Virus record (IMG/VR): IMGVR_UViG_3300031986_000021
Location: 1-39,556 of that record
Reading direction: 5' to 3' (one strand)
Source of the DNA: a virus
DNA length: 39,556 nucleotides
Numbering within the stretch: the first letter of the stretch is position 1; each line of letters begins with the position of its first letter. Made by a program: the position numbers and the translations under genes. Shown one piece after another: positions 103 to 39,556 of this stretch. Under the pieces are notes generated by a model. The model ran no database searches. It was not told where the DNA came from and worked only from the letters and a program-made list of their open reading frames with translations.

Positions 103-1665
103 CTATTCAACGGCAAGGATTTGGATTTCGCCAATAGGGCTGTTAGCCTCTTGCTGGATCAACGATTGCCTTGACGTATTTGTCCGCACCGTTCCGGATA
201 TCTTGCACCCGGCTAAGCGCATTCGGGCTACAGCGTTGTTCGATGGCGGAGAGCCAATTAATGTAAGATCGTCGAATATCAGCTCGCTTTCGAATGCCAC
301 CACGGCCCGGGACCGACTCCCGCAGATTATCGTACCGGCAATCTGGATGCCGGTCGGCGCGACTTCACGTCCGGTAGTGCCCATGATTCCGGCCGCCTGC
401 ACGCAAATCCCGACCGGATTAGTGCTGTTAGAACGACTGAGATCCACCGAATCGAACTGAACTCGGATGTCCCTGCTTCCAGAGGAAATCTGCACCATGC
501 CGTTTTCCGCGCCTGGACTGCCGACGACACCGCGCTGTAAGTTGGTGTTTGACCCCGAAACCTTTACGCGAATGTCACGACTTGCGTCTTCGATATGAAC
601 AAGCTCATAGCCTATGCCCTCCCCCGCCACATCGATATCCCAGTCGTCGCAATTGGCCATTCCCACTGCCCATTGCCCGATTTCGCGCGCCACCAGATTG
701 CTTATCCGCCCGTGCGACGCTCCTCCAGCAGACAGCCGGAAAGGTTCGGCTGACTTGGAAGAAAAGATTGCAGCGTTGCTAAGAACCACCTGGCCGGATC
801 TATCCGTTCCGGCAACCCGTGTTCCTGCAGGAAACGCCTCGCAACGGACAGGCTGCCCCTTTTTCAGCGCTGTCGCCGCTATGATACCGCCGGCGGGATC
901 GGTAACCCTGTAAAGAATTGACGAGCCCTCCTTTGTTTCAACAAACAAGAGGCCAGGCGCGTTTATCTCTATTACCTCTGTGCAATCGACGCCTGTGCAA
1001 TCAATGAAGTTCAGGTACTGATAGCTTGCAGTGTCGGATGTCTGGCGGAAGAATCCGAAATCCAGTCCCCGAAAATGACATTGCTCCATACTGAAATGTT
1101 CAAGATCCACTCCGATCGGAATCACACCGTAGTGTCCTGATCGACCGCCTTGGCCGACAAAGGCGGTTTGCCGAATTGTCGTATCACGGGAATTGCCGGT
1201 GATAGCGACGCCAGCAGTCCAACCCGGTAGCGCAGACTCGCAACGAATTTCGAGGCCGTCGATCTGAATGCCATCGCCGGCGATCGCTAGTCCATAGAAT
1301 GCTGAGAGCTTTCTCCGCGAAATACCAAGAATTGAACGGCCCGACTCGCCAAGGATTTTCTGTCCATCAGTCAGCACCAGAGGTTGGGCGCCTCGAAAAG
1401 CGCCTTCGTCGTACATTTTGAAAACACCTGGCGGAACATACAAGGTCCCGGACGGTCCGATCGCAGAGAGCGCCCTTCGAAAGGCCTCAAAATTATCGGT
1501 AGTTCCGTCTCCAACGCCACCAAAGTCTGTCAGGCTCGGCGTTATCTGGCCCTCGGCGGCAACACTGGACGACACGGCAGCAGCGATGGTTGTTGCCGCT
1601 AGAACCTCTCGCCTAGAGAACTTTGTTGATTGTCTCAGGTTGAATGAGCCACTAGGATTTTTCAT
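103..1665 (-). CDS. Tat-exported right-handed beta-helix (pectate-lyase-like) protein, tailspike paralogue
   Basis: This 520-residue protein begins with a twin-arginine signal (SRREVLA near residues 17-23, then an Ala-rich hydrophobic stretch ending near SVAAEG). The body opens with a typical pectate-lyase-3 segment (DFGGVGDGTTDN, a row of short repeats afterwards) and should fold as a right-handed beta-helix that binds or cleaves polysaccharide in the periplasm or outside. Along almost its whole mature length it aligns by eye with the prophage tailspike at 16156-18432: FRGLDFGF against FRNLDFGW, QWAVGMANC against QWAIGVANC, RAVVAFES against RAVVAFDS. It lacks the tailspike's N-terminal virion-docking part and its C-terminal domain. 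The start is supported by a CAGGAG ribosome site. It lies outside attL, so it is a host gene or a relic of another element. Catalytic residues and substrate are not identifiable. Bases 1-102 downstream show no supportable gene. Confidence 0.8.
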   Translation of the reverse strand: MKNPSGSFNLRQSTKFSRREVLAATTIAAAVSSSVAAEGQITPSLTDFGGVGDGTTDNFEAFRRALSAIGPSGTLYVPPGVFKMYDEGAFRGAQPLVLTDGQKILGESGRSILGISRRKLSAFYGLAIAGDGIQIDGLEIRCESALPGWTAGVAITGNSRDTTIRQTAFVGQGGRSGHYGVIPIGVDLEHFSMEQCHFRGLDFGFFRQTSDTASYQYLNFIDCTGVDCTEVIEINAPGLLFVETKEGSSILYRVTDPAGGIIAATALKKGQPVRCEAFPAGTRVAGTDRSGQVVLSNAAIFSSKSAEPFRLSAGGASHGRISNLVAREIGQWAVGMANCDDWDIDVAGEGIGYELVHIEDASRDIRVKVSGSNTNLQRGVVGSPGAENGMVQISSGSRDIRVQFDSVDLSRSNSTNPVGICVQAAGIMGTTGREVAPTGIQIAGTIICGSRSRAVVAFESELIFDDLTLIGSPPSNNAVARMRLAGCKISGTVRTNTSRQSLIQQEANSPIGEIQILAVE

Positions 1666-6907: not shown

Positions 6908-7753
6908 ATGAATTTCAAGCGCACCAAGCCGTTTCTGCTCGCCACCGCCGGTTCGACCGTCGATGGCCGCACCATCGACGAAAACATGATCCGGGAAATG
7001 GCGAAAAGCTATGACCCCAAAACCTATGGCGCGCGGCTGAACATCGAACATATTCGCGGGATTTCGGGCGAAAAGCCGTTCCGTGCCTATGGCGACGTCG
7101 CCGAGCTGTCGGTCGGCGAAGTCGATGTCAATTTCAACGGCAAGACCGAAAAGCGGGTCGCGCTCTACGGTTCCTTCGACGTGACCGAGGACGCCCAGGC
7201 ACTCAATTCCGCCCAGCAAAAGGTCTTTCCGTCAATCGAGATTGAACCCAACTTCGGCGGCAAGGGCTTTGCCTATCTGATGGGTTGCGCGCTGACCGAC
7301 AGCCCGGCATCGATCGCCACCGAACGCCTGGCGTTCAATGTCACCCGACCCGGCGCACTGACCTTCAGCCGCGACGAAGGCGCCGTACTGGAATTCGCCG
7401 ACGGCAAGGGCGACGTCACCCCCGAAGGCGGCAGCTTCCTTAAGGCGCTGACCGGCATCCTCGAAAAATTCGCCGGCAAGCCGGTCGAAACCCCGGCGAA
7501 CCCGGTTGTCCAGCCGCCGGTCACCACCCCCGGCACGATCGACATGGCGGCGCTGACCGGCCTGTTCGGCGAATTCGGCAAGACGATCGAGGGTGCGATG
7601 CAGGCGCATGCAGCGGCCGTCACCGCCGAAATCGACCGGGTCGACCTGAAGGTGACCAGCCTTGCCAAGGAGTTCGAAGGCACGCCCGCGCCGGATCAGC
7701 AGCGCCGCCCGCTGGCCAACGGCAACGCCAATTTCACGAAAACGGCCTTCTGA
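6908..7753 (+). CDS. O: Capsid scaffolding protein and prohead protease, P2 gpO family
   Basis: This 281-residue protein matches P2 gpO (about 284) in length and layout. The N-terminal half is the serine protease: Asp19 (TVDGR), His48 (NIEHIRG) and Ser109 (VFPSIEIEPNF) correspond to the Asp19-His48-Ser107 triad described for P2. The C-terminal half, with a Pro-rich linker followed by helical stretches (MAALTGLFGEFGKTIEG and beyond), is the scaffold that guides assembly of the capsid protein and is removed on maturation. It is the first gene of the rightward head operon; GGAG eight bases before the ATG supports the start. Confidence 0.95.
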   Translation: MNFKRTKPFLLATAGSTVDGRTIDENMIREMAKSYDPKTYGARLNIEHIRGISGEKPFRAYGDVAELSVGEVDVNFNGKTEKRVALYGSFDVTEDAQALNSAQQKVFPSIEIEPNFGGKGFAYLMGCALTDSPASIATERLAFNVTRPGALTFSRDEGAVLEFADGKGDVTPEGGSFLKALTGILEKFAGKPVETPANPVVQPPVTTPGTIDMAALTGLFGEFGKTIEGAMQAHAAAVTAEIDRVDLKVTSLAKEFEGTPAPDQQRRPLANGNANFTKTAF

Positions 7754-7802
7754 CCGCCACGCCACACCCGCGCCCTTTATCTGACGCCAAGGAAGCACTC
7801 CG

Positions 7803-8927
7803 ATGCACAAAGACACCCGACTCCTCTTCGCCGCCTATGTTTCCCAGATCGCGCTGGTGAACGGCCTTGCCGCCGATGATATCGAAAAGAAATTCACCGT
7901 CGCGCCTCACCCCGAGCAGAAGCTCGAGGAAGCGATCAAGGAAAGCAGCGAATTCCTTCAGGCGATCGCGATCGTCCCCGTCATCAACCAGTCGGGCGAG
8001 AAAGTCGGCATCGGCACCACGCGCACCCTCGCTGGTCGCCGCAACACGGCCGCCGGCAACGCCCGCAACCCGACCGACCCGACCGATTCGGATCTGCTCG
8101 ACGAATATCTGTGCAAAAAGACCGATTTCGATCATGCGATCCGCTACGAAAAGATCGACGCGTGGCGCCACCGGCCCGAATTCCAGACGCTGGTCGCCGG
8201 TGCAATTGCAAAGCAGCAGGGTCGCGACCGTATCATGATCGGATGGAACGGCACGTCGGCGGCGGTTCAGACCGACCGGGCCGCCAATCCCCTGCTGCAG
8301 GACGTCAATCTGGGCTGGCTGTACAAGATCCGCACCAATGCGCCTACGCAGGTGCTCGATGACGGCGACCTGACGGTCTATGCGAATGCCGCCAACAATC
8401 CGGGTCTGAAGAAGATCTATGTCAAGCCGGGCGTCACCCTCTATGACCCCGTGCTGGACAACAAGGTCGCGGCAGAGGCCGACTATGCCTCGCTCGAGGC
8501 GCTGGTGCTCGATGCCAAGTCGCTCATCCCGGAATGGCATCGCCAGAATCCCGAACTGGTGGTCATTATCGGCCAGGATCTGCTCGACGAGAAATATTTC
8601 ACGATCGCGCAGACCACTGGTGCCACGGCAACCGAGGTCGAGGCGACCGACCGTATCCTGCGCTCGACGAAGCAGATCGGCGGCCTCCAGGCTGTAGCGG
8701 TCCCGTTCTTCCCCGCGACGTCGATCATGATCACGACGCTCAAGAATCTGGCCATCTATGTCCAGGAAGGCAGCCGCCGCCGCCTGGTCCGCGACGAACC
8801 GAAACTCGACCAGATCGAGAACTACGAAAGCGTCAACGAGGCCTATGTGGTCGAGGATTATGAGCTCGTCGCCTTGGTCGAAAACATCGCGATGGGCGAA
8901 GCACCGGCACGTCCCGCCGCCCCGTAA
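7803..8927 (+). CDS. N: Major capsid protein, P2 gpN family
   Basis: The 374-residue product (P2 gpN about 357) has the family's typical N-terminus (TRLLFAAYVSQIALVNGL), central KTDFDHAIRYEKIDAWRH and C-terminal EDYELVALVENI segments. It forms the icosahedral shell, HK97-like in fold by family knowledge, after cleavage by gpO. AAGGAAG precedes the ATG. It follows O by 49 bases and is followed by a hairpin-rich gap before M. Confidence 0.96.
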   Translation: MHKDTRLLFAAYVSQIALVNGLAADDIEKKFTVAPHPEQKLEEAIKESSEFLQAIAIVPVINQSGEKVGIGTTRTLAGRRNTAAGNARNPTDPTDSDLLDEYLCKKTDFDHAIRYEKIDAWRHRPEFQTLVAGAIAKQQGRDRIMIGWNGTSAAVQTDRAANPLLQDVNLGWLYKIRTNAPTQVLDDGDLTVYANAANNPGLKKIYVKPGVTLYDPVLDNKVAAEADYASLEALVLDAKSLIPEWHRQNPELVVIIGQDLLDEKYFTIAQTTGATATEVEATDRILRSTKQIGGLQAVAVPFFPATSIMITTLKNLAIYVQEGSRRRLVRDEPKLDQIENYESVNEAYVVEDYELVALVENIAMGEAPARPAAP

Positions 8928-8951
8928 AACCACCCAGAGAGGGCATTGAAG

Positions 8952-9024
8952 CCGGGGCTGCCGTGATGAGCGGTTCCGGAAGAGCCCCGGACAAAAGGGG
9001 CAGCGTGTCATCACCGCGCTGCCC
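8952..9024 (+). other. Two consecutive hairpins between capsid gene N and gene M
   Basis: CCGGGGCT (8952-8959) pairs with AGCCCCGG (8983-8990), and GGGCAGCG (8998-9005) with CGCTGCCC (9017-9024). Neither is followed by a T-run, so simple intrinsic termination is unlikely. They may stabilise the capsid mRNA, mark a processing site or reduce downstream transcription, which would fit the higher need for gpN. Confidence 0.5.
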
Positions 9025-9045
9025 GCCTAAAAAGGAGCCCCGCTC

Positions 9046-9795
9046 ATGACCAGCCTTGCCAAACGCCGCCGCGAAGCCATCCTTGCCCAACGCGCCGCCG
9101 AAGCCGCCGGTGCATCGATCGCCGGTGTCGCCGCCGCCATGCCCGAAGACGGCGAAGCGACTAGCGAATATCGCGTCCTGCTCGCCGTGCTGCACGAAGA
9201 TTTGCGCCAGCTGTCGGAAACCCAGTCGGTCTCCGCCCGCAACCCGCTGAAGGCCGAAATGGCGGTCAAATATCATGCGTGGATCCGCGGCGCGCTCGAG
9301 GCCGGCGAAGCGGGCAACGCCGCCCAGGACGAAATCGTCACCACCAACATGATCTGGGCAATCGATTATCGCGATATCGACATGGCGATCAATCTGGGCA
9401 CCCACGTCCTGACGCACGGCCTGACCCTGCCCGAACGCTACAACCGCACCCCGGCGTGCCTGATCGCCGAGGAAATCGCCACCGTCGCCATGGCCGAACC
9501 CGGCGCGGTCACGCTCGAGCAACTGCAGCGCGTCGCCGCGCTGACGGAAGAGCGCGACATGCCCGACCAGGCGCGAGCCAAATTGTTCAAAGCCCTGGGT
9601 CGCGCCAGCGCCGCGTCCGCCGCCGCATTCGACCCACAGGCCGACAATGCGGTGGCGGGCGGCAAGGCCGCGCTGCTCGAAGCCGCGATCGGCGCCTTTG
9701 GCGAAGCGATCAAGCTGCACAAGGATTGCGGCGCGAAGACCGATTTGCGGAACGCAGAAGCCGAGCTGAAGAAACTCGCCCCGCCCGCCACGTAA
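9046..9795 (+). CDS. M: Terminase small (endonuclease) subunit, P2 gpM family
   Basis: It has 249 residues against about 247 for P2 gpM. The family pattern is visible: a basic, Ala-rich N-terminus (SLAKRRREAILAQRAAE), then helical segments including EYRVLLAVLHEDLRQL and MIWAIDYRDIDMAINLGTH. With gpP it recognises and cuts cos during packaging. AAAAAGGAG lies before the ATG. The gene sits between N and L as in P2. Confidence 0.93.
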   Translation: MTSLAKRRREAILAQRAAEAAGASIAGVAAAMPEDGEATSEYRVLLAVLHEDLRQLSETQSVSARNPLKAEMAVKYHAWIRGALEAGEAGNAAQDEIVTTNMIWAIDYRDIDMAINLGTHVLTHGLTLPERYNRTPACLIAEEIATVAMAEPGAVTLEQLQRVAALTEERDMPDQARAKLFKALGRASAASAAAFDPQADNAVAGGKAALLEAAIGAFGEAIKLHKDCGAKTDLRNAEAELKKLAPPAT

Positions 9796-15907: not shown

Positions 15908-16156
15908 ATGCAGAAATTTTTCAGCCCTTCTATTGGCGGCTTCTTCAGCGAAGATATCCACGGTTGCCGCACGATCGAAAGCGGCGACCCGCCAATCCAT
16001 ATTCCCAATCCCGCCTGCGCCATACCTGCAGACGCAATTGCGATTGACGACGATCATTGGCGTGATCTCATCGAACAAACCTGCGCGGGGCGGCAGATCG
16101 TCGTCATCGACGGCGCCGTCGTCGCTGTCGATATCCCGGTCAAAGGGGAATCCTGA
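15908..16156 (+). CDS. Small tail-fibre assembly (Tfa-like) protein
   Basis: The 82-residue product begins MQKFFSPSIGGFFSEDIHG and ends with a GRQIVVIDGAVVAVD hairpin, resembling the N-terminal part of many tail-fibre chaperones encoded directly after fibre genes. It is shorter than P2 gpG (about 175) and lacks the chaperone C-terminal domain. It probably helps folding or attachment of the fibre, or forms a small fibre-tip component. Its TGA overlaps the ATG of the tailspike gene. Confidence 0.65.
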   Translation: MQKFFSPSIGGFFSEDIHGCRTIESGDPPIHIPNPACAIPADAIAIDDDHWRDLIEQTCAGRQIVVIDGAVVAVDIPVKGES

Positions 16157-18432
16157 TGGCCAAGATCACCGCGCTTCCGCTTGCTGGACCGCTTGATGGC
16201 AGCGAAATGCTGCCGATTGTACAAAGCGGCGAGACACGCCGCATCAATCCTGCCGACCATCTGGCCTATATTGCGCTTGGCGCAGAGCTGGCGCGCGACC
16301 AGGCCGCCGACCTGGTCTTGCCGCAGAATATTTTTATCGACGTCGATCTGGCCGTTGCCGAAGGCGATGTCGAAGAGGACACCATCTTCAAAGTCGTCAA
16401 CACCTCGACTGGCATTGCCGACGTGCGGATCAGGCGCGCGATCGGATCCGACCTTCTGTATCAGGAGGCAACCGCGGCTGCATTGGCCGCCCCTTTCGCT
16501 TCCGAAAATCTGGGTCACGACGACGGCGGCGACGACACGGTACCATCCACGGTAGGGTGGCACCTTCGCCTGGCGCCCATCGATCCCCGTAGCTATGGAG
16601 CGGTTCTGGACGGCGTGGCCGACGACGCCATCCCGCTTCGCCGGTGTTTTGCAGCCGCTGCCGCGACCGGACGATCGATCCGTATCCCCAAGGGTAAGAC
16701 CCTGTTGTTCACGGACCAAAGCACCTTCGACAGCGGCATCGATTTGGCACCGCCTGCCGGGGTGGAAATCTTTGGGGACGGGCCTACCTCCGTTCTGAAA
16801 TTCAGGCGGGTCGCCTATTCCTCTGCCTACGGGCTGGCGATCAGCAACGACAATTTCACGCTTCGCAACCTGACCTGCGTGGTGGACATCAACGGCGGAA
16901 CCGGTTTCGCCGCCGCGATCGCGCTGACAGGGGCCATGCGGAATTTCATGGCGATCGACGTCGCTTTTGAAGGTCTGATCTTGCCCGTTATCGGGGTGCC
17001 GAGCGGCCAATATGCGGTGCTTAACTGGTTCGCCGACGTAGAAAATATCAGCTTCATCCGCTGCGGGTTTCGTAACCTCGATTTTGGGTGGGTCAAAACC
17101 AGCTCTGACCCCTCAACACAGTCGAACTTTCTCTCGACCGACTGCAGAGCAGAATATTGTCAGGAGGTCTTTGAGTTCAATTCCCCGGGACTGTTCAATG
17201 CCGTCGCCGATCTGGGATCGGCGGTGCTGCAGGACATCGATACGGGGACGACGCATCTTTCGGTTGGGCAAAAGATCAAGAGTCCTGCCCTTCCGCCAGG
17301 AACAACGATAATTTCGATCGATGGCCCCGATCAGATAACGGTCAGCGTAGCCGCAAACGCAGACGGGTTGCAGCGGTTTTCGGTCGGTACCATTGCGAAC
17401 ATCCGCATTGGCGGCCTGCATGCCAGGCACATTCTCCAGTGGGCGATCGGGGTCGCGAACTGCCGGGATGTGCAGATCGAAGGTCATTTTGAGGACATCG
17501 CCTTCGAGGCGGTTCATCTCGAGGATCACACCGAAAATGTGGATGTCCGGCTCAGCGGATTTGGCTGCAACAGCGTCATAGGCGTGCCCACATCGCCGGG
17601 GTCGAACAACGGCGCCGTGCAGATCATGTCCGGTTGTCGCAGGGTCTCGGTTACATTCCTTGATTTCGACTTGCGCCATGCTCCCGGTGGCTCGCCGAAC
17701 GCACTTGTGGTGCAGCCGATCATTGGCAACATTGCCGGTTCGACGAACGAACAAGCTGCCAGTTCCGGAATTTCTGTGTCCGGACGGATTGTCGGCCATG
17801 CGGGCTGCCGGGCGGTCGTTGCGTTCGATTCCGACGTTGCATTCCATGATCTGATCGCGATCAGTCCTGACCCGGCATCAAAGATGAGCCCGATCGCGAC
17901 GCTCAAAACCTGTTCTTGGACGGGTCGGATCGAAGTACAGAACCCCGGTACGATTACCGAAGTGAACGACGCATCGCTTGGTCAATGGTCGGAAATTCTG
18001 CTGACAACCTCAGAGGATGGCTTTCCCGATCTCATCTGGGCATCGGGCTTTTTCGGCGCTGCACGAAATGCGCCGCCTCTCTGCTCGAGGGTAACATTCG
18101 TCCTCCCCACGACCGCCGATCCCGATGCCACACCCTGCGTTCTTTGCCCTACCCCGCAAACTCTGATCGGGACGGTCAGCCGAAAATATGTTGGTGGGCA
18201 GCATGCATATGAAGCGGGCGCATTCAACATCAATGGCGGCGAGCTGTCGCCTACTGATGTCTATGTCGAACAGAACAGTATCAATCTGACGCCAGACTCG
18301 GGAGTGCCGCGGCAAACCGACGATGGCTGGGATGTTGACGATGGTCGGCTGCGATTTCGCGCCTATGCCGATCCGGCCATTGATTGTCAGGCGCGTATCA
18401 CCCTGACTGGCGATTTCTTCCCCGCCGTATGA
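16156..18432 (+). CDS. Tailspike with beta-helix domain (putative polysaccharide depolymerase)
   Basis: The 758-residue protein has three parts. Residues about 1-140 form a docking region (ITALPLAGPLDGSEMLPIVQ is typical of phage particle-attachment domains). From about 140 (PRSYGAVLDGVADDAIPLRR, a pectate-lyase-3 opening) to about 600 a right-handed beta-helix is expected. The last ~160 residues form a separate C-terminal domain. The beta-helix aligns with the Tat-exported protein at 103-1665 outside the prophage. The likely role is binding and cleaving a capsule or exopolysaccharide of the host. Catalytic residues cannot be assigned by eye. It overlaps the convergent FkbM gene by 46 bases at the 3' end. 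Confidence 0.85.
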   Translation: MAKITALPLAGPLDGSEMLPIVQSGETRRINPADHLAYIALGAELARDQAADLVLPQNIFIDVDLAVAEGDVEEDTIFKVVNTSTGIADVRIRRAIGSDLLYQEATAAALAAPFASENLGHDDGGDDTVPSTVGWHLRLAPIDPRSYGAVLDGVADDAIPLRRCFAAAAATGRSIRIPKGKTLLFTDQSTFDSGIDLAPPAGVEIFGDGPTSVLKFRRVAYSSAYGLAISNDNFTLRNLTCVVDINGGTGFAAAIALTGAMRNFMAIDVAFEGLILPVIGVPSGQYAVLNWFADVENISFIRCGFRNLDFGWVKTSSDPSTQSNFLSTDCRAEYCQEVFEFNSPGLFNAVADLGSAVLQDIDTGTTHLSVGQKIKSPALPPGTTIISIDGPDQITVSVAANADGLQRFSVGTIANIRIGGLHARHILQWAIGVANCRDVQIEGHFEDIAFEAVHLEDHTENVDVRLSGFGCNSVIGVPTSPGSNNGAVQIMSGCRRVSVTFLDFDLRHAPGGSPNALVVQPIIGNIAGSTNEQAASSGISVSGRIVGHAGCRAVVAFDSDVAFHDLIAISPDPASKMSPIATLKTCSWTGRIEVQNPGTITEVNDASLGQWSEILLTTSEDGFPDLIWASGFFGAARNAPPLCSRVTFVLPTTADPDATPCVLCPTPQTLIGTVSRKYVGGQHAYEAGAFNINGGELSPTDVYVEQNSINLTPDSGVPRQTDDGWDVDDGRLRFRAYADPAIDCQARITLTGDFFPAV

Positions 18433-19187
18433 GCAACCGACAGGAGTCTGCGCACCGATCGCGCGATTTTGCGACGACCTCGCCCGATCACGGTCTTGAC
18501 CGCTGCGACCGCCTGCGCTCGATAGATTTCGGCTCGGCTCAAAAGATCGGCCCTGACGAAAACTTCGTTGGGCGTCGATCGCTTCCAAAGCACATAGCCC
18601 CTCCGCTTCATAAAGCGGCGGTAGGAGCGTTCGATGAAAAGATTCTCCATGATGATGACACCGGGACGATAACGGTCAAAATCCAGCCCCGAAAGCACCT
18701 CGAGCTCCCATCCTTCGACATCAAGCGCAATTAGGTCGATCGAGTTCCATCTAGCCCGCCGTTCCCTAAGCAGCGTGTCGGCGCGGCGCACCTTGACGGT
18801 GATTGTCTTTCGATCCCGGGGAACCTGCATCTCGGCAAATTTACCGCGGATGCCGAGCGACGACCAACTTTCGAAGGACACCGCGCCCTCCCGATATCGC
18901 GCGCCCTTGCAGTCCACGATCGTAAATTCCGCGGCGTCAGCGTCACGATCCGACAGAGCCAGTTCGGCAACATCATTCCCTGCCCGCCGCTGAAGGTCGG
19001 CAAATACCGGATTGGGCTCTACAGCAAGGACATCCCAGCCGCGCTGCCGAAAAGGCCTGCCCAGCGATAGCCAGTCTGGGCGAGCTGCCCCGATTTCCAG
19101 CATCCGGCCATCGGTCTTGTCGGCGAAAAAGCGCCGGGTGACCACTTCGTCAAGTTTTCCTTCTGCACTCATGCTCCCGCATAACAT
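18387..19187 (-). CDS. FkbM-family SAM-dependent methyltransferase (moron)
   Basis: The sequence contains a SAM-binding LEIGAARPDW, the acidic VEPNPVFADLQ strand, and the family hallmark IALDVEGWELEVLSGL followed by RPGVIIMENL. FkbM enzymes O-methylate small molecules and sugars, often on surface polysaccharides. The start at 19187 (MLCGSMSAEGK, 266 residues) is chosen because residues further upstream are basic, non-conserved and run into the late box at 19237; a start at 19172 is also possible. It is antisense between tailspike and V, an insertion not found in P2, and could be expressed in the lysogen. Methylating the receptor of the neighbouring tailspike is an attractive but untested role. 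Confidence 0.85.
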   Translation of the reverse strand: MLCGSMSAEGKLDEVVTRRFFADKTDGRMLEIGAARPDWLSLGRPFRQRGWDVLAVEPNPVFADLQRRAGNDVAELALSDRDADAAEFTIVDCKGARYREGAVSFESWSSLGIRGKFAEMQVPRDRKTITVKVRRADTLLRERRARWNSIDLIALDVEGWELEVLSGLDFDRYRPGVIIMENLFIERSYRRFMKRRGYVLWKRSTPNEVFVRADLLSRAEIYRAQAVAAVKTVIGRGRRKIARSVRRLLSVAHTAGKKSPVRVIRA

Positions 19188-26554: not shown

Positions 26555-27001
26555 ATGAGCAACAGCTTTTTCGAGAAGATAAACCAAAAAATCAGCGATA
26601 CCCGCGCAGATCAATCAAATGCGGCCGCCCAGATCGCCACGGCCCGCGCATACTCGGCGGAGCAAATCGCCAACGCGATTCCCGTAGCGAAGGCGTATGC
26701 CGACCAATTGGCTCTTCAAAAGATCAAGGTGCTGATGATTCCCCAGGAACAGAGCATCAGCTTCAGCATGTATTGGGCTGATGGAACAGACCATGGATTT
26801 TGGCTTGTCATAGACGAGCCCACAGGAAAACTGCAGTTCAAATATCACACTACGGACGCTGTGGATCTGCGGCGTTCAAACAGCACAGGCATGGATTTAT
26901 ACAGCAGAGCCAATTGGACTCAGGATATATTCGTGGAGACGCTGGAGCGGGAAATCGAAGATTTCATTGACCAATCTAAGGCGCACGGCGGCCTCGCTTA
27001 A
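26555..27001 (+). CDS. Orphan hypothetical protein after the tail operon
   Basis: A protein of 148 residues with a good ribosome site (AAGGTGAGGAAAT before the ATG). The first ~70 residues are helical and Ala/Gln-rich, possibly a short coiled coil; the rest looks alpha/beta (SFSMYWADGTDHGFWLVIDEP). I recognise no family. Base and codon use are clearly more AT-rich than in the flanking tail genes, a sign of separate acquisition. Its stop codon overlaps that of the convergent ORF ending at 26998. It occupies the ogr position of P2, a usual place for cargo genes. Confidence 0.75.
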   Translation: MSNSFFEKINQKISDTRADQSNAAAQIATARAYSAEQIANAIPVAKAYADQLALQKIKVLMIPQEQSISFSMYWADGTDHGFWLVIDEPTGKLQFKYHTTDAVDLRRSNSTGMDLYSRANWTQDIFVETLEREIEDFIDQSKAHGGLA

Positions 27002-34449: not shown

Positions 34450-34760
34450 GCGCCCCAGTTCAAGGCTTTAAGATCGACCAAATCTTCGGCCAAAGCCTTA
34501 CCGACGTGATGGCAGAGCGCGTCCGCGCCGTCCTCACCTTCGGCCACGACGCGAACGCCGACGACGCCGCGGGCCTCCACGCGCTGGGTGCCAAGGCGAC
34601 GTCGTTCATGCAGATCGCCGACGATCGCGCCACCGGCGGCATCGCCGCCCGCAACCTTCCCGCCGCCCGAAAGAAAGCCGTCCAGGCGGTCGCCATCGGC
34701 CTCGCCTTCATCGACGCCATCGACCGCGAAATCGCCAGAGAGGAAAGCCAACATGGCTGA
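34446..34760 (+). CDS. Small hypothetical protein
   Basis: 104 residues with GTG start, helical and Ala-rich, with FKIDQIFGQSLTDVMAERVR near the start and AARKKAVQAVAIGLAFIDAI near the end. No family recognised. It overlaps the DUF5131 gene by eight bases. Confidence 0.65.
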   Translation: MSAPVQGFKIDQIFGQSLTDVMAERVRAVLTFGHDANADDAAGLHALGAKATSFMQIADDRATGGIAARNLPAARKKAVQAVAIGLAFIDAIDREIAREESQHG

Positions 34761-35901
34761 TAACACCCCCATCGAATGGGCCGACGCGACCGTGAACGCC
34801 ATCAACGGCTGCACCGTCCTCTCGCCCGGCTGCACCAACTGCTATGCGATGAAGCTGGCTGGGACGCGGCTCAAGCATCACGAAAGTCGCAAGGGGCTGA
34901 CGATCGACACAAAGGCCGGTCCGGTCTGGAATGGCACCGTCCGGCTTCATGCTCCCGCCCTGCTGCAGCCTCTGTCTTGGAAGCGCCCGCGCGTCATTTT
35001 CTGGAACGCCCACGGCGACCCATTCCATCCCGACGTTCCCGACGACTGGCTCTGGGAAATGTTCGAGGTCATTCAGCGGACCCGACATCACAAGCACCTG
35101 GTGCTGACGAAGCGATCGGCGCGGATGCGCGAATTCATGGAGAAGCTTACCAAGCTGCCATCCGACATCAACAGCTTCTACGGACTTGGCCCGGACGCGA
35201 AACTTTATCAGCCGATCCGCAACCTCTGGCTGGGCGTTTCGATCGAAGATCAGGCGCGGGCCGACGAACGCATCCCCGATCTGCTCGCCACAATGGCTGA
35301 AGGTCGCTTCCTGTCATGCGAGCCGTTGCTGGGCCCCATCGATCTTTCGCGCATCAACAGTGCGGCCGACGAAGAATGCTTTGATGGCGAAGCAGCGCGC
35401 GGACGCCTCAATGCGCTGACCGGCGCCTATTATGTCGAATGCCCGGAGGACGATGGCAGCTGGGTCGATTGCTGCGGCCCCGACGTCATCCAGCGCGGCT
35501 TCGATCCTACCGCCAGATGGAAAGGCAACGGCCCGATCCACGGCGTGATTGTTGGCGGCGAAAGCGGTTCCGGCGCCCGCCCGATGAACCCGGATTGGGC
35601 GCGCGCGATTCGCGACGACTGCGCGCTTGCCGGCGTCGACTTCCACTTCAAACAATGGGGTTCGCACTCACCCCTTCGTAGCGATCTCATCCCGGTCGCC
35701 CGCAAGAATATCGGTTGGGTGCAGAACGACGGTCGCATCGAATACGACGTCTCGGAAGATCGCGCCTACGAAATGGCGGACGCAGAGCACGAGGCCGACC
35801 GAACCCTGTTCACGATGATGTGCCGTGTCGGCAAGAAGCGAGCCGGTCGCACCCTCGACGGCGTCACGCACGATGCTCTGCCATGGCGGAGGGCGGCATA
35901 A
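34753..35901 (+). CDS. Phage Gp37/Gp68 family (DUF5131) protein, radical-SAM-like cysteine motif
   Basis: The 382-residue protein begins TPIEWADATVNAINGCTVLS and then PGCTNCYAMKLA, the hallmark of the Gp37/Gp68 family, whose clustered Cys residues resemble an iron-sulphur site. Later segments WKRPRVIFWNAHGDPFHPDV and HLVLTKRSARM are also typical. The biochemical role of the family is not established; a radical-SAM-type modification of nucleic acid or protein is a reasonable guess. The C-terminal part VIVGGESGSGARPMNPDWAR is conserved in the family. It is cotranscribed with the next gene (TAATG overlap). Confidence 0.85.
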   Translation: MADNTPIEWADATVNAINGCTVLSPGCTNCYAMKLAGTRLKHHESRKGLTIDTKAGPVWNGTVRLHAPALLQPLSWKRPRVIFWNAHGDPFHPDVPDDWLWEMFEVIQRTRHHKHLVLTKRSARMREFMEKLTKLPSDINSFYGLGPDAKLYQPIRNLWLGVSIEDQARADERIPDLLATMAEGRFLSCEPLLGPIDLSRINSAADEECFDGEAARGRLNALTGAYYVECPEDDGSWVDCCGPDVIQRGFDPTARWKGNGPIHGVIVGGESGSGARPMNPDWARAIRDDCALAGVDFHFKQWGSHSPLRSDLIPVARKNIGWVQNDGRIEYDVSEDRAYEMADAEHEADRTLFTMMCRVGKKRAGRTLDGVTHDALPWRRAA

Positions 35902-37816: not shown

Positions 37817-37971
37817 GCCAGGCGGGTCGCCCGGATCCTGATTTGATGCGTTTCGTGCAGGCCCTTGCCCGCGCGACCGCGGCGCGCGACATTGCCGCCT
37901 CCCGCTCCTTACCGAATCGACGCCATGCGCACCGTCATATACGCCCGCTTCTCAAGCAATCTTCAGAATAG
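37813..37971 (+). CDS. Possible small ORF overlapping the integrase start
   Basis: A GTG-started frame of 52 residues (SQAGRPDPDLMRFVQALARA at its start) overlaps the methyltransferase stop by GTGA, the junction type used throughout this operon, and the integrase start by 47 bases. It bridges the otherwise empty 108-base gap. Its first half looks like small helical phage proteins; the second half may simply be out-of-frame integrase sequence. Confidence 0.4.
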   Translation: MSQAGRPDPDLMRFVQALARATAARDIAASRSLPNRRHAHRHIRPLLKQSSE

Positions 37972-39556
37972 CCGGTCGATCGACGATCAGGTCGCGGTGT
38001 GCCGGGAACGGTGCGAAGCCGAAGGCTGGAAGATCGTCGACATCTTCCGCGACTATGCGATCGGCGGCGGCGCGGGCGTTGACGAAGCGCAGCGGCCCGG
38101 CATGTTCGACATGCTCGAGCTGGTCGAGCGTGGCGGGATCGAACAGGTTCTGGCCGACAGCACCAGCCGCATCGCCCGCAACCAGGGCGACGCCCACCAC
38201 ATCCGAGAGCGCATCAACTTCGCCGGCGCACGGATCTTCACCCTCGCTGATGGCGAAATCAACGCCCTGACCGGCGGCATAAAGGGTTTGCTCGACGAAC
38301 AGCAGCGCAAGGATCTCGGACACAACATCCGCCGCGCCCAGCGCGGCCGCGCGTCGCAAGGGCTTTCGCCCGCCGGCATCGCCTACGGCTATCGCAAGAT
38401 TTTGCAATTCGACGAACGCGGCCGCGCGATCAACGGCTTGCGCGAAATCGACCCCGACACCGCGCCAATCGTGACGCGGATCTTCACCGAATATGCATCG
38501 GGCCGATCGGCGCGACAGATCGCGGAGGATCTGAATAGGGACGGCGTAGCCCCGCCGAGCGGCCAGTTCTGGCAGGTCAACACGCTCGCCGGCAGCAGGA
38601 CGCGGCAGGACGGGATACTGCGCAACTGGCTATACAACGGCCAGCTGGTCGTCGGCCGCACGCAAAAGCTGATAGACCCGCGCACCCGCAAAACCCGCAT
38701 TCGCCCACGGCCGCGCGAAGAATGGTCGTTCAACCCGGTCCCGCACCTTCAGATTGTCGACGATGATCTATGGCAAGCGGTAGAGCAGCAGTTCGCCAAA
38801 TTCTCCGATCGGCCGCGTGAACAGGCACGGCGCCCCGCGAAGCTGCTGTCCAAGCTTTGCGTGTGCGGAGAATGCGGCAACTCCTATACCATCGTTCGAA
38901 AGACGCGCTGGGGATGCCGCGGCTTCCGCCAAGGCGGGCCAGCGGTCTGCACGAACAGCCGCACGATCGACAACGTCGACCTCGAGCGGCGCGCCATCAA
39001 CGGCCTGACCGAGCAGCTGCTCGATCCTGACATGGTATCGGCCTTCGTTCGTGAATATCATCTCGACTACACCCGCCGCGCTGGTGAGATCACGGGACGC
39101 GAAGCCGCGATCCGCGCCGAGTTGACGGAGTGCGAAGCGCGAATCGCGCGCTTGGTTGCGGCGATCGCCGATGGCGGCGGCGCGTTCGCCGAGATCCGGC
39201 AAGCCCTCGCCGCCGCGACGACCGAACGCGACGCCCTGCAGGGCGAGCTTGCGGATCTCGATACGTTGCCCGTCGTGGCGCTCCACCCCCAGATCGCCGA
39301 GCGATATCGCGCCATGGTACGCGACCTCGCCACCGCGATGGACAATCCCGAAGCTTTGAAAGTCGCCGCGCCCGAACTGCGCGCACTGATCGACACGATC
39401 CTGATCACGCCCGCAAAGGCCGAGAAAGGCGTGGATATTCAGATCGTCGGCCGCCTCGCCAACATGATCGCGATCGCCACCGGCGCCCCACTGAACACCG
39501 CCGCACCTTCAGGTACGCTAACACTGGAGCGGGTAGCGGGAATCGAACCCGCCTAG
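37925..39556 (+). CDS. Large serine recombinase (phage integrase)
   Basis: The 543-residue protein starts MRTVIYARFSSNLQ, where Ser10 in the Y-x-R-x-S pattern is the catalytic nucleophile. The resolvase domain continues with STSRIARNQGDAHHI and GLLDEQQRKDLGHNIRR, then a recombinase domain (YGYRKILQFDERGRAINGLR), a zinc ribbon (CVCGECGNSY ... WGCRG ... CTNSRTI) and a coiled coil (about 385-460). It integrates and, with a directionality factor, excises the prophage. The last residues (ERVAGIEPA) are encoded by the antisense of the tRNA 3' end and the stop lies inside the tRNA, so integration reconstitutes the gene's end. The upstream in-frame start at 37865 is less likely than ATG 37925. Confidence 0.95.
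   Translation: MRTVIYARFSSNLQNSRSIDDQVAVCRERCEAEGWKIVDIFRDYAIGGGAGVDEAQRPGMFDMLELVERGGIEQVLADSTSRIARNQGDAHHIRERINFAGARIFTLADGEINALTGGIKGLLDEQQRKDLGHNIRRAQRGRASQGLSPAGIAYGYRKILQFDERGRAINGLREIDPDTAPIVTRIFTEYASGRSARQIAEDLNRDGVAPPSGQFWQVNTLAGSRTRQDGILRNWLYNGQLVVGRTQKLIDPRTRKTRIRPRPREEWSFNPVPHLQIVDDDLWQAVEQQFAKFSDRPREQARRPAKLLSKLCVCGECGNSYTIVRKTRWGCRGFRQGGPAVCTNSRTIDNVDLERRAINGLTEQLLDPDMVSAFVREYHLDYTRRAGEITGREAAIRAELTECEARIARLVAAIADGGGAFAEIRQALAAATTERDALQGELADLDTLPVVALHPQIAERYRAMVRDLATAMDNPEALKVAAPELRALIDTILITPAKAEKGVDIQIVGRLANMIAIATGAPLNTAAPSGTLTLERVAGIEPA
39525..39545. other. attR: right copy of the 21-bp tRNA-derived repeat
   Basis: Identical to 1790-1810. Here the sequence continues (AACCCGCC) into a complete T-stem on the minus strand, so the functional tRNA was kept on this side. 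Confidence 0.85.
39525..39556 (-). tRNA. tRNA gene, 3' end only (probably tRNA-Gly)
   Basis: On the minus strand the sequence gives a T-stem GCGGG, loop TTCGATT, CCCGC, then acceptor strand TACCCGC, discriminator T and encoded CCA. An acceptor stem starting GCGGG with a U73 discriminator fits bacterial tRNA-Gly best. The rest of the gene, including the anticodon, lies beyond the window, so the identity is inferred. Confidence 0.7.

Follow-up and report, generated by a model that had tools for sequence, protein, structure and literature searches.

WceF of Pantoea stewartii (PDB 6tgf) is exported by the Tat system, has a tailspike-like β-helix, and cleaves stewartan, which is also the substrate of its known phage relative, the tailspike of phage phiEa1h (∼25% identity; PMC7949094). 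That an enzyme exported by a bacterium can have a body like that of a tailspike is, thus, already known from this pair. The DNA analyzed here (hereafter, the window), which makes up a complete linear IMG/VR virus record (39,556 bases), contains a prophage tailspike, P0002, and a gene for an exported-type β-helix protein, P0001. Like WceF, P0001 has a β-helix, would be a bacterial rather than a virion-bound protein, and is a relative of a phage tailspike, the homology with the tailspike body reaching E = 1e-67. Unlike P0001, WceF comprises a head, a neck, and a C-terminal domain, forms a trimer, and is encoded in an exopolysaccharide (EPS) cluster; a sequence comparison of the two proteins gave no match, and WceF and the phiEa1h tailspike are not known to reside together in a single genome. 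As P0001 is devoid of the head, neck, and C-terminal domains, it would work like WceF at most and was not filed as a member of this type.

Other described systems share fewer features with the locus. The tailspike depolymerases of phages (Sf6, CBA120, HK620, and others) resemble P0002 in consisting of a docking head, a β-helix, and a C-terminal region, and have a matching fold; unlike for these, no match for the P0002 body was found in 50,697 phage records. VexL of Achromobacter denitrificans, monomeric as quoted in a passage of PMC7949094 and likened here by its description, and RbmB of Vibrio cholerae are bacterial β-helix enzymes whose targets are polysaccharides of the capsule or the matrix. 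RbmB appeared in the fold search, a sequence relation between it and P0001 was not detected, and for neither enzyme is pairing with the tailspike of a resident prophage known. TspA, the tailspike of the Rhodobacter gene transfer agent (GTA), degrades biofilm away from the particle (PMC13420450); it is particle-derived and detaches, unlike the product of a Tat-exported gene. What is new in the locus described here is the homology, over the full body, between an apparently exported protein and the tailspike of a resident prophage, together with the repeated co-residence of such pairs. In the open-access literature searched, no description of such homology, occurring twice in one phage group, was found.

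The prophage in the window is P2-like, with portal, terminase, baseplate, and tail genes; it is preceded by a flank of ∼1.8 kb on the left, and the gene at its right end encodes a serine integrase (37925–39556, plus strand; phrog_95, E = 3e-75). A 21-nt direct repeat, for which 0 occurrences are expected by chance, is located at both ends. The attL core (1790–1810; TGGAGCGGGTAGCGGGAATCG) duplicates the 3′ end of a tRNA-Gly, and the attR core (39525–39545) is the 3′ end of the tRNA-Gly itself (minus strand), overlapping the end of the integrase gene, with the remainder of this tRNA gene lying beyond the window. The repeat corresponds to the 3′ end of tRNA-Gly(TCC), which is complete in the nearest relative, the MAG SPHING1 (integrase 94% identical), and is followed there by a DNA polymerase IV-like host gene (named from its translated start). 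Relatives of the integrase occur in Sphingomonadales, several of them sited at tRNA-Gly. Homology between the window and the SPHING1 prophage begins exactly at base 1790, which places P0001, 124 bp away from attL, outside the prophage. The position just outside attL given for this gene in the preliminary description was, thus, borne out by both the repeat and the start of homology. The element at tRNA-Gly is a prophage with flanking att repeats and an integrase, and comparison with the SPHING1 flank agrees. Scanning for promoters and terminators yielded nothing informative.

P0001 (520 aa; 103–1665, minus strand) is an open reading frame beginning with ATG, preceded by a ribosome-binding site (AGGAG) 10 nt upstream; the record ends 102 bp past the gene. 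Its N-terminus (MKNPSGSFNLRQSTKFSRREVLAATTIAAAVSSSVAAEG) contains a putative Tat-like signal peptide (residues 1–37; 1555–1665, minus strand; FSRREVLAATTIAAAVSSSVAA), in which the motif SRREVLA (residues 17–23) is followed by a weakly hydrophobic stretch and an AxA-like end. This assignment was read from the motif alone, a search of P0001 with signal HMMs having given no match, and it suggests that the protein is exported by Tat. The signal is followed by the β-helix body (residues 44–494; 184–1536, minus strand) and ∼26 further residues; phage-like head, neck, and C-terminal domains are lacking. The pectate-lyase-like family PF12708 scored 23.6 bits against P0001, which is below the gathering cut-off of 27, and only the N-terminal cap matched. 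AlphaFold models of both P0001 and P0002 were β-helical and of low confidence (mean pLDDT 57 and 45, respectively), too weak for a meaningful superposition. Foldseek and VIA matches of these low-confidence models were β-helices, among which enzymes and tailspikes were not separable; together with the AlphaFold model, they indicate a right-handed β-helix body in P0001.

P0002 (758 aa; 16156–18432, plus strand) is encoded after the genes for the tail fiber and fiber assembly (tail fiber assembly protein, 15908–16156, plus strand; phrog_188), at the position of the tailspike in syntenic prophages (that of genome G001 and that of Novosphingobium clariflavum). It comprises a docking head (residues 1–142; 16156–16581, plus strand), a β-helix body homologous to P0001 (residues 147–593; 16594–17934, plus strand), and a C-terminal region absent from P0001 (residues 594–758; 17935–18429, plus strand). 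Thus, P0002 extends 165 residues beyond the shared body, whereas P0001 stops soon after the helix; a trimerization or binding domain is proposed for this region, by inference only. The head, or at least its first part, was found in 80 IMG/VR phage proteins, with identities of up to 83% over the first 40 residues and decreasing from there (66–73% over 113–124 residues in two loci, L118 and L119). From this head, which is common to other phages, and from its place among the tail genes, P0002 is a phage tailspike. The body shared by P0001 and P0002 was present in none of the 80 loci, and the syntenic prophages of G001 and N. clariflavum combine the same head with different bodies. As the head is joined to differing bodies, the tailspike is modular, and the body shared with P0001 is one of many alternatives.

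A gene for an FkbM-type methyltransferase (18387–19187, minus strand; PF05050, E = 9e-19; GC3 0.65) overlaps the end of the tailspike gene on the opposite strand. It is missing from the corresponding place in the sister prophage of G001 and is a cargo gene, a candidate for lysogenic conversion by methylation of the coat glycan.

The body alignment of P0001 with the tailspike, reported in the preliminary description, was reproduced by BLASTP over 457 aa (33% identity, 220 bits), and every sequence block quoted there was present. The local alignment score was 575, compared with 43 ± 6 in 200 shuffles. Conservation was highest in residues 313–410 of P0001 (42–48% identity), where conserved acidic residues are clustered (D341, E349, E354, E359, and D360), and the two proteins also have an insertion in common (residues 245–312 of P0001). 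The preliminary description had allowed that the alignment might be no better than that between any two β-helix proteins. In the corresponding control, the best other match of P0001, against β-helix open reading frames fetched from Sphingomonadales, had E = 3e-7 and comprised mostly the N-terminal cap (residues 44–84), the sole part matching other β-helices well; a profile built from the P0001 and P0002 sequences scored at most 28 bits elsewhere. At the sequence level, the relationship of P0001 to the working part of the tailspike is, thus, remote but beyond doubt. No similarity between the two genes was detected at the DNA level, and therefore, any exchange between them would be old.

Three further genomes were then searched for exported relatives of their own prophage tailspikes; the resulting count rests on very few genomes. 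Such a Tat-like/tailspike pair was found in one of the three, that of N. clariflavum, and not in SPHING1 or G005. The prophage of N. clariflavum is syntenic with that in the window and has a different tailspike body, which is 38–39% identical (38% over 307 aa, E = 2e-53) to a Tat-like β-helix protein encoded in the same genome (at about C45:69109–70299, i.e., L207:9110–10300, plus strand). This protein begins with MTSYIRPLRVAETFVGRRGFVAALGG and carries a Tat-like signal with the motif GRRGFVAAL. Its gene is surrounded by genes for glycosyltransferases, a GumK-like glucuronosyltransferase, a chain-length-regulator-type ATPase, and a transporter-like membrane protein; from these glycan-synthesis neighbors, it is located inside an exopolysaccharide cluster. 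The body was present in one of 196 genomes of the genus, its own, where it occurs in both formats. N. clariflavum contains five copies of the tailspike on separate contigs (L201–L204; G009 C13, C100, C49, C111, and C44), with bodies 84–100% alike, which suggests that several related prophages recognize the same receptor.

For the tailspike of G005, no relative was found in its own genome, and the only relative of the SPHING1 tailspike in that genome was another phage tailspike: the tailspike body of the SPHING1 P2-like prophage recurs, at 33% identity, on another phage element (SPHING1 C17, L206:9936–12116, minus strand). This second copy was rejected as a host copy, as its different, tail-fiber-type head marks it as phage-type. 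An all-against-all comparison of the fetched tailspikes with the fetched host proteins yielded one further pair, the members of which stem from different records: an IMG/VR tailspike (L125) is 40% identical over 563 aa to a Tat-like protein (L081/L208). In the sphingomonad contig L208, the gene for the latter (7680–9452, minus strand) is an isolated, low-GC3 Tat-like β-helix gene adjoining tgt. Another sphingomonad genome has a Tat-like β-helix protein within an EPS cluster. By comparison of these sequences, the swap between exported-type and virion formats recurs. Of the domain exchange that had been proposed for the window, common descent and the combination with a docking head in one protein and a Tat-like signal in the other were upheld, as was the format swap itself, which recurs in the other pairs; a recent swap between P0001 and the tailspike gene is contradicted by the lack of DNA-level similarity and by the protein identity of only 33%.

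Genomes were sampled around SPHING1 at the level of order (398), family (398), class (385), genus (80), and phylum (299), the sets being overlapping. In none of these samples, nor in the 50,697 phage records, was a body-level relative of P0001 or P0002 found, and 72,556 plasmids, searched with P0001 only, contained no relative of it. Scans of genome and viral contigs, including IMG/VR, with close-relative patterns (from P0001, P0002, and their alignment) detected no relative either, and degenerate motifs (WA-G-ANC and SPG--NG-VQI) gave chance matches only. Because comparable searches for other bodies did find relatives at 33–39% identity, the search was sensitive enough. The GC3 of P0001 is 0.56, compared with 0.77–0.86 for most prophage genes and 0.64–0.66 for the tailspike module. 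At the same tRNA, SPHING1 carries other genes and no P0001; its flank matching the P0001 side contains a peptidylprolyl isomerase-like gene and not EPS genes. From the low GC3, the absence at the SPHING1 tRNA, and the lack of relatives among the sphingomonads searched, P0001 is probably an accessory gene that was itself acquired, rather than one conserved in the host. Descent from an earlier prophage of this type was rejected, as what lies to the left of attL is not the end of an integrase gene.

The reading we favor, and consider fairly probable, is that P0001 is a WceF-like exported EPS-modifying enzyme and that the homologous body of the tailspike acts on the same glycan. P0001 would be a candidate glycan hydrolase or lyase modifying exopolysaccharide, which would fold in the cytoplasm, leave it via the Tat system, and trim or remodel the polysaccharide of the cell's own coat or biofilm, either in the periplasm or outside the cell. 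In the P2-like prophage, the homologous body behind the tail-docking head would attach to this polysaccharide, or to one much like it, and cleave it upon entry. Body modules would have moved long ago between Tat-exported and virion formats, and a strain with a coat polysaccharide suiting such an enzyme would tend to hold both forms. The same pairing in a second bacterium, N. clariflavum, suggests that the coat sugar processed by the phage is also the target of a related host enzyme. Against this reading count the lack, in P0001, of a head and a C-terminal domain, both of which serve WceF in its trimeric form, the end of the window ∼100 bp past P0001, which leaves any adjoining EPS cluster out of view, the lack of EPS genes in the matching flank of SPHING1, the low confidence of the structure models, the failure to assign catalytic residues, and the finding of a pair in only one of the three other genomes.

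How the two formats came to share a body can be viewed in two directions, both of which are variants of the favored reading, so that the confidence in each overlaps with that in the favored reading itself. It is possible, though less likely than not, that P0001 is a domesticated tailspike, the receptor-binding body of which was left behind by another phage of this host, gained a Tat signal, and now serves the cell; the two genes would then owe their likeness to receptor enzymes common to the phages of a given host. The atypical GC content of P0001, its location at a tRNA gene to which mobile DNA is drawn, and its lack of relatives in the searched sphingomonad genomes are consistent with such an origin. 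So are the Tat-like orphan of low GC3 that adjoins tgt in another sphingomonad and has a body of tailspike type, and the occurrence in SPHING1 of related tailspike bodies on two distinct phages; acquisition from a phage was also proposed by the authors of the WceF study (PMC7949094). However, P0001 has no further phage genes in view next to it, a phage with a closer body was not found in the searches, and the N. clariflavum copy is located inside an EPS cluster. The latter finding, taken with the five tailspike copies of 84–100% similarity, is rather the pattern of a body that was recruited and then spread, as would be expected if the prophage lineage had put the body of an exported host EPS enzyme onto its docking head, and this head is indeed joined to many unrelated bodies. 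Yet identities of 33–39% are too low to name the resident host gene as the donor, an outgroup is lacking, and P0001 is not a conserved host gene, which leaves this direction somewhat doubtful.

We hold it to be unlikely that P0001 is a decoy or defense protein, which removes or occupies a surface glycan and thereby blocks phages, including relatives of the resident one. The homology of the bodies makes a common glycan specificity plausible, and the FkbM methyltransferase beside the tailspike is a further candidate for coat alteration, but neither P0001 nor P0002 had a match in PADLOC, and in N. clariflavum, the exported-type copy sits with EPS biosynthesis genes. An ordinary resemblance of two pectin-lyase-like β-helices, with no special link between them, is highly improbable, common as the fold is, given that the alignment scores 220 bits along the entire body, other helices reaching ∼28 bits, and that the insertion is present in both proteins.

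More generally, temperate phages of sphingomonads and their hosts may hold homologous bodies for the same coat polysaccharide, the one on the virion and the other exported by Tat, so that an exported EPS enzyme would predict, and may supply or neutralize, the receptor-binding enzyme of a prophage; we put this forward tentatively. In phage biology, identification of the polysaccharide cut by a given tailspike is a bottleneck. Should exported homologues residing in the same genome mark the polysaccharide enzyme of the host, the substrate of an orphan tailspike could be read from the EPS cluster, and vice versa, and a route would be given for the exchange of modules between host polysaccharide enzymes and receptor-binding proteins of phages, which the work on WceF had left as a proposal.

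Two further genes of the prophage were recorded. After the tail genes, a 148-aa gene of unusual composition (26555–27001, plus strand; GC 0.51, GC3 0.62) had just a weak match, to a phrog of unknown function. In the early region, a DUF5131 protein (34588–35901, plus strand) matches the PADLOC candidate defense models PDC-M41B and PDC-M30B.
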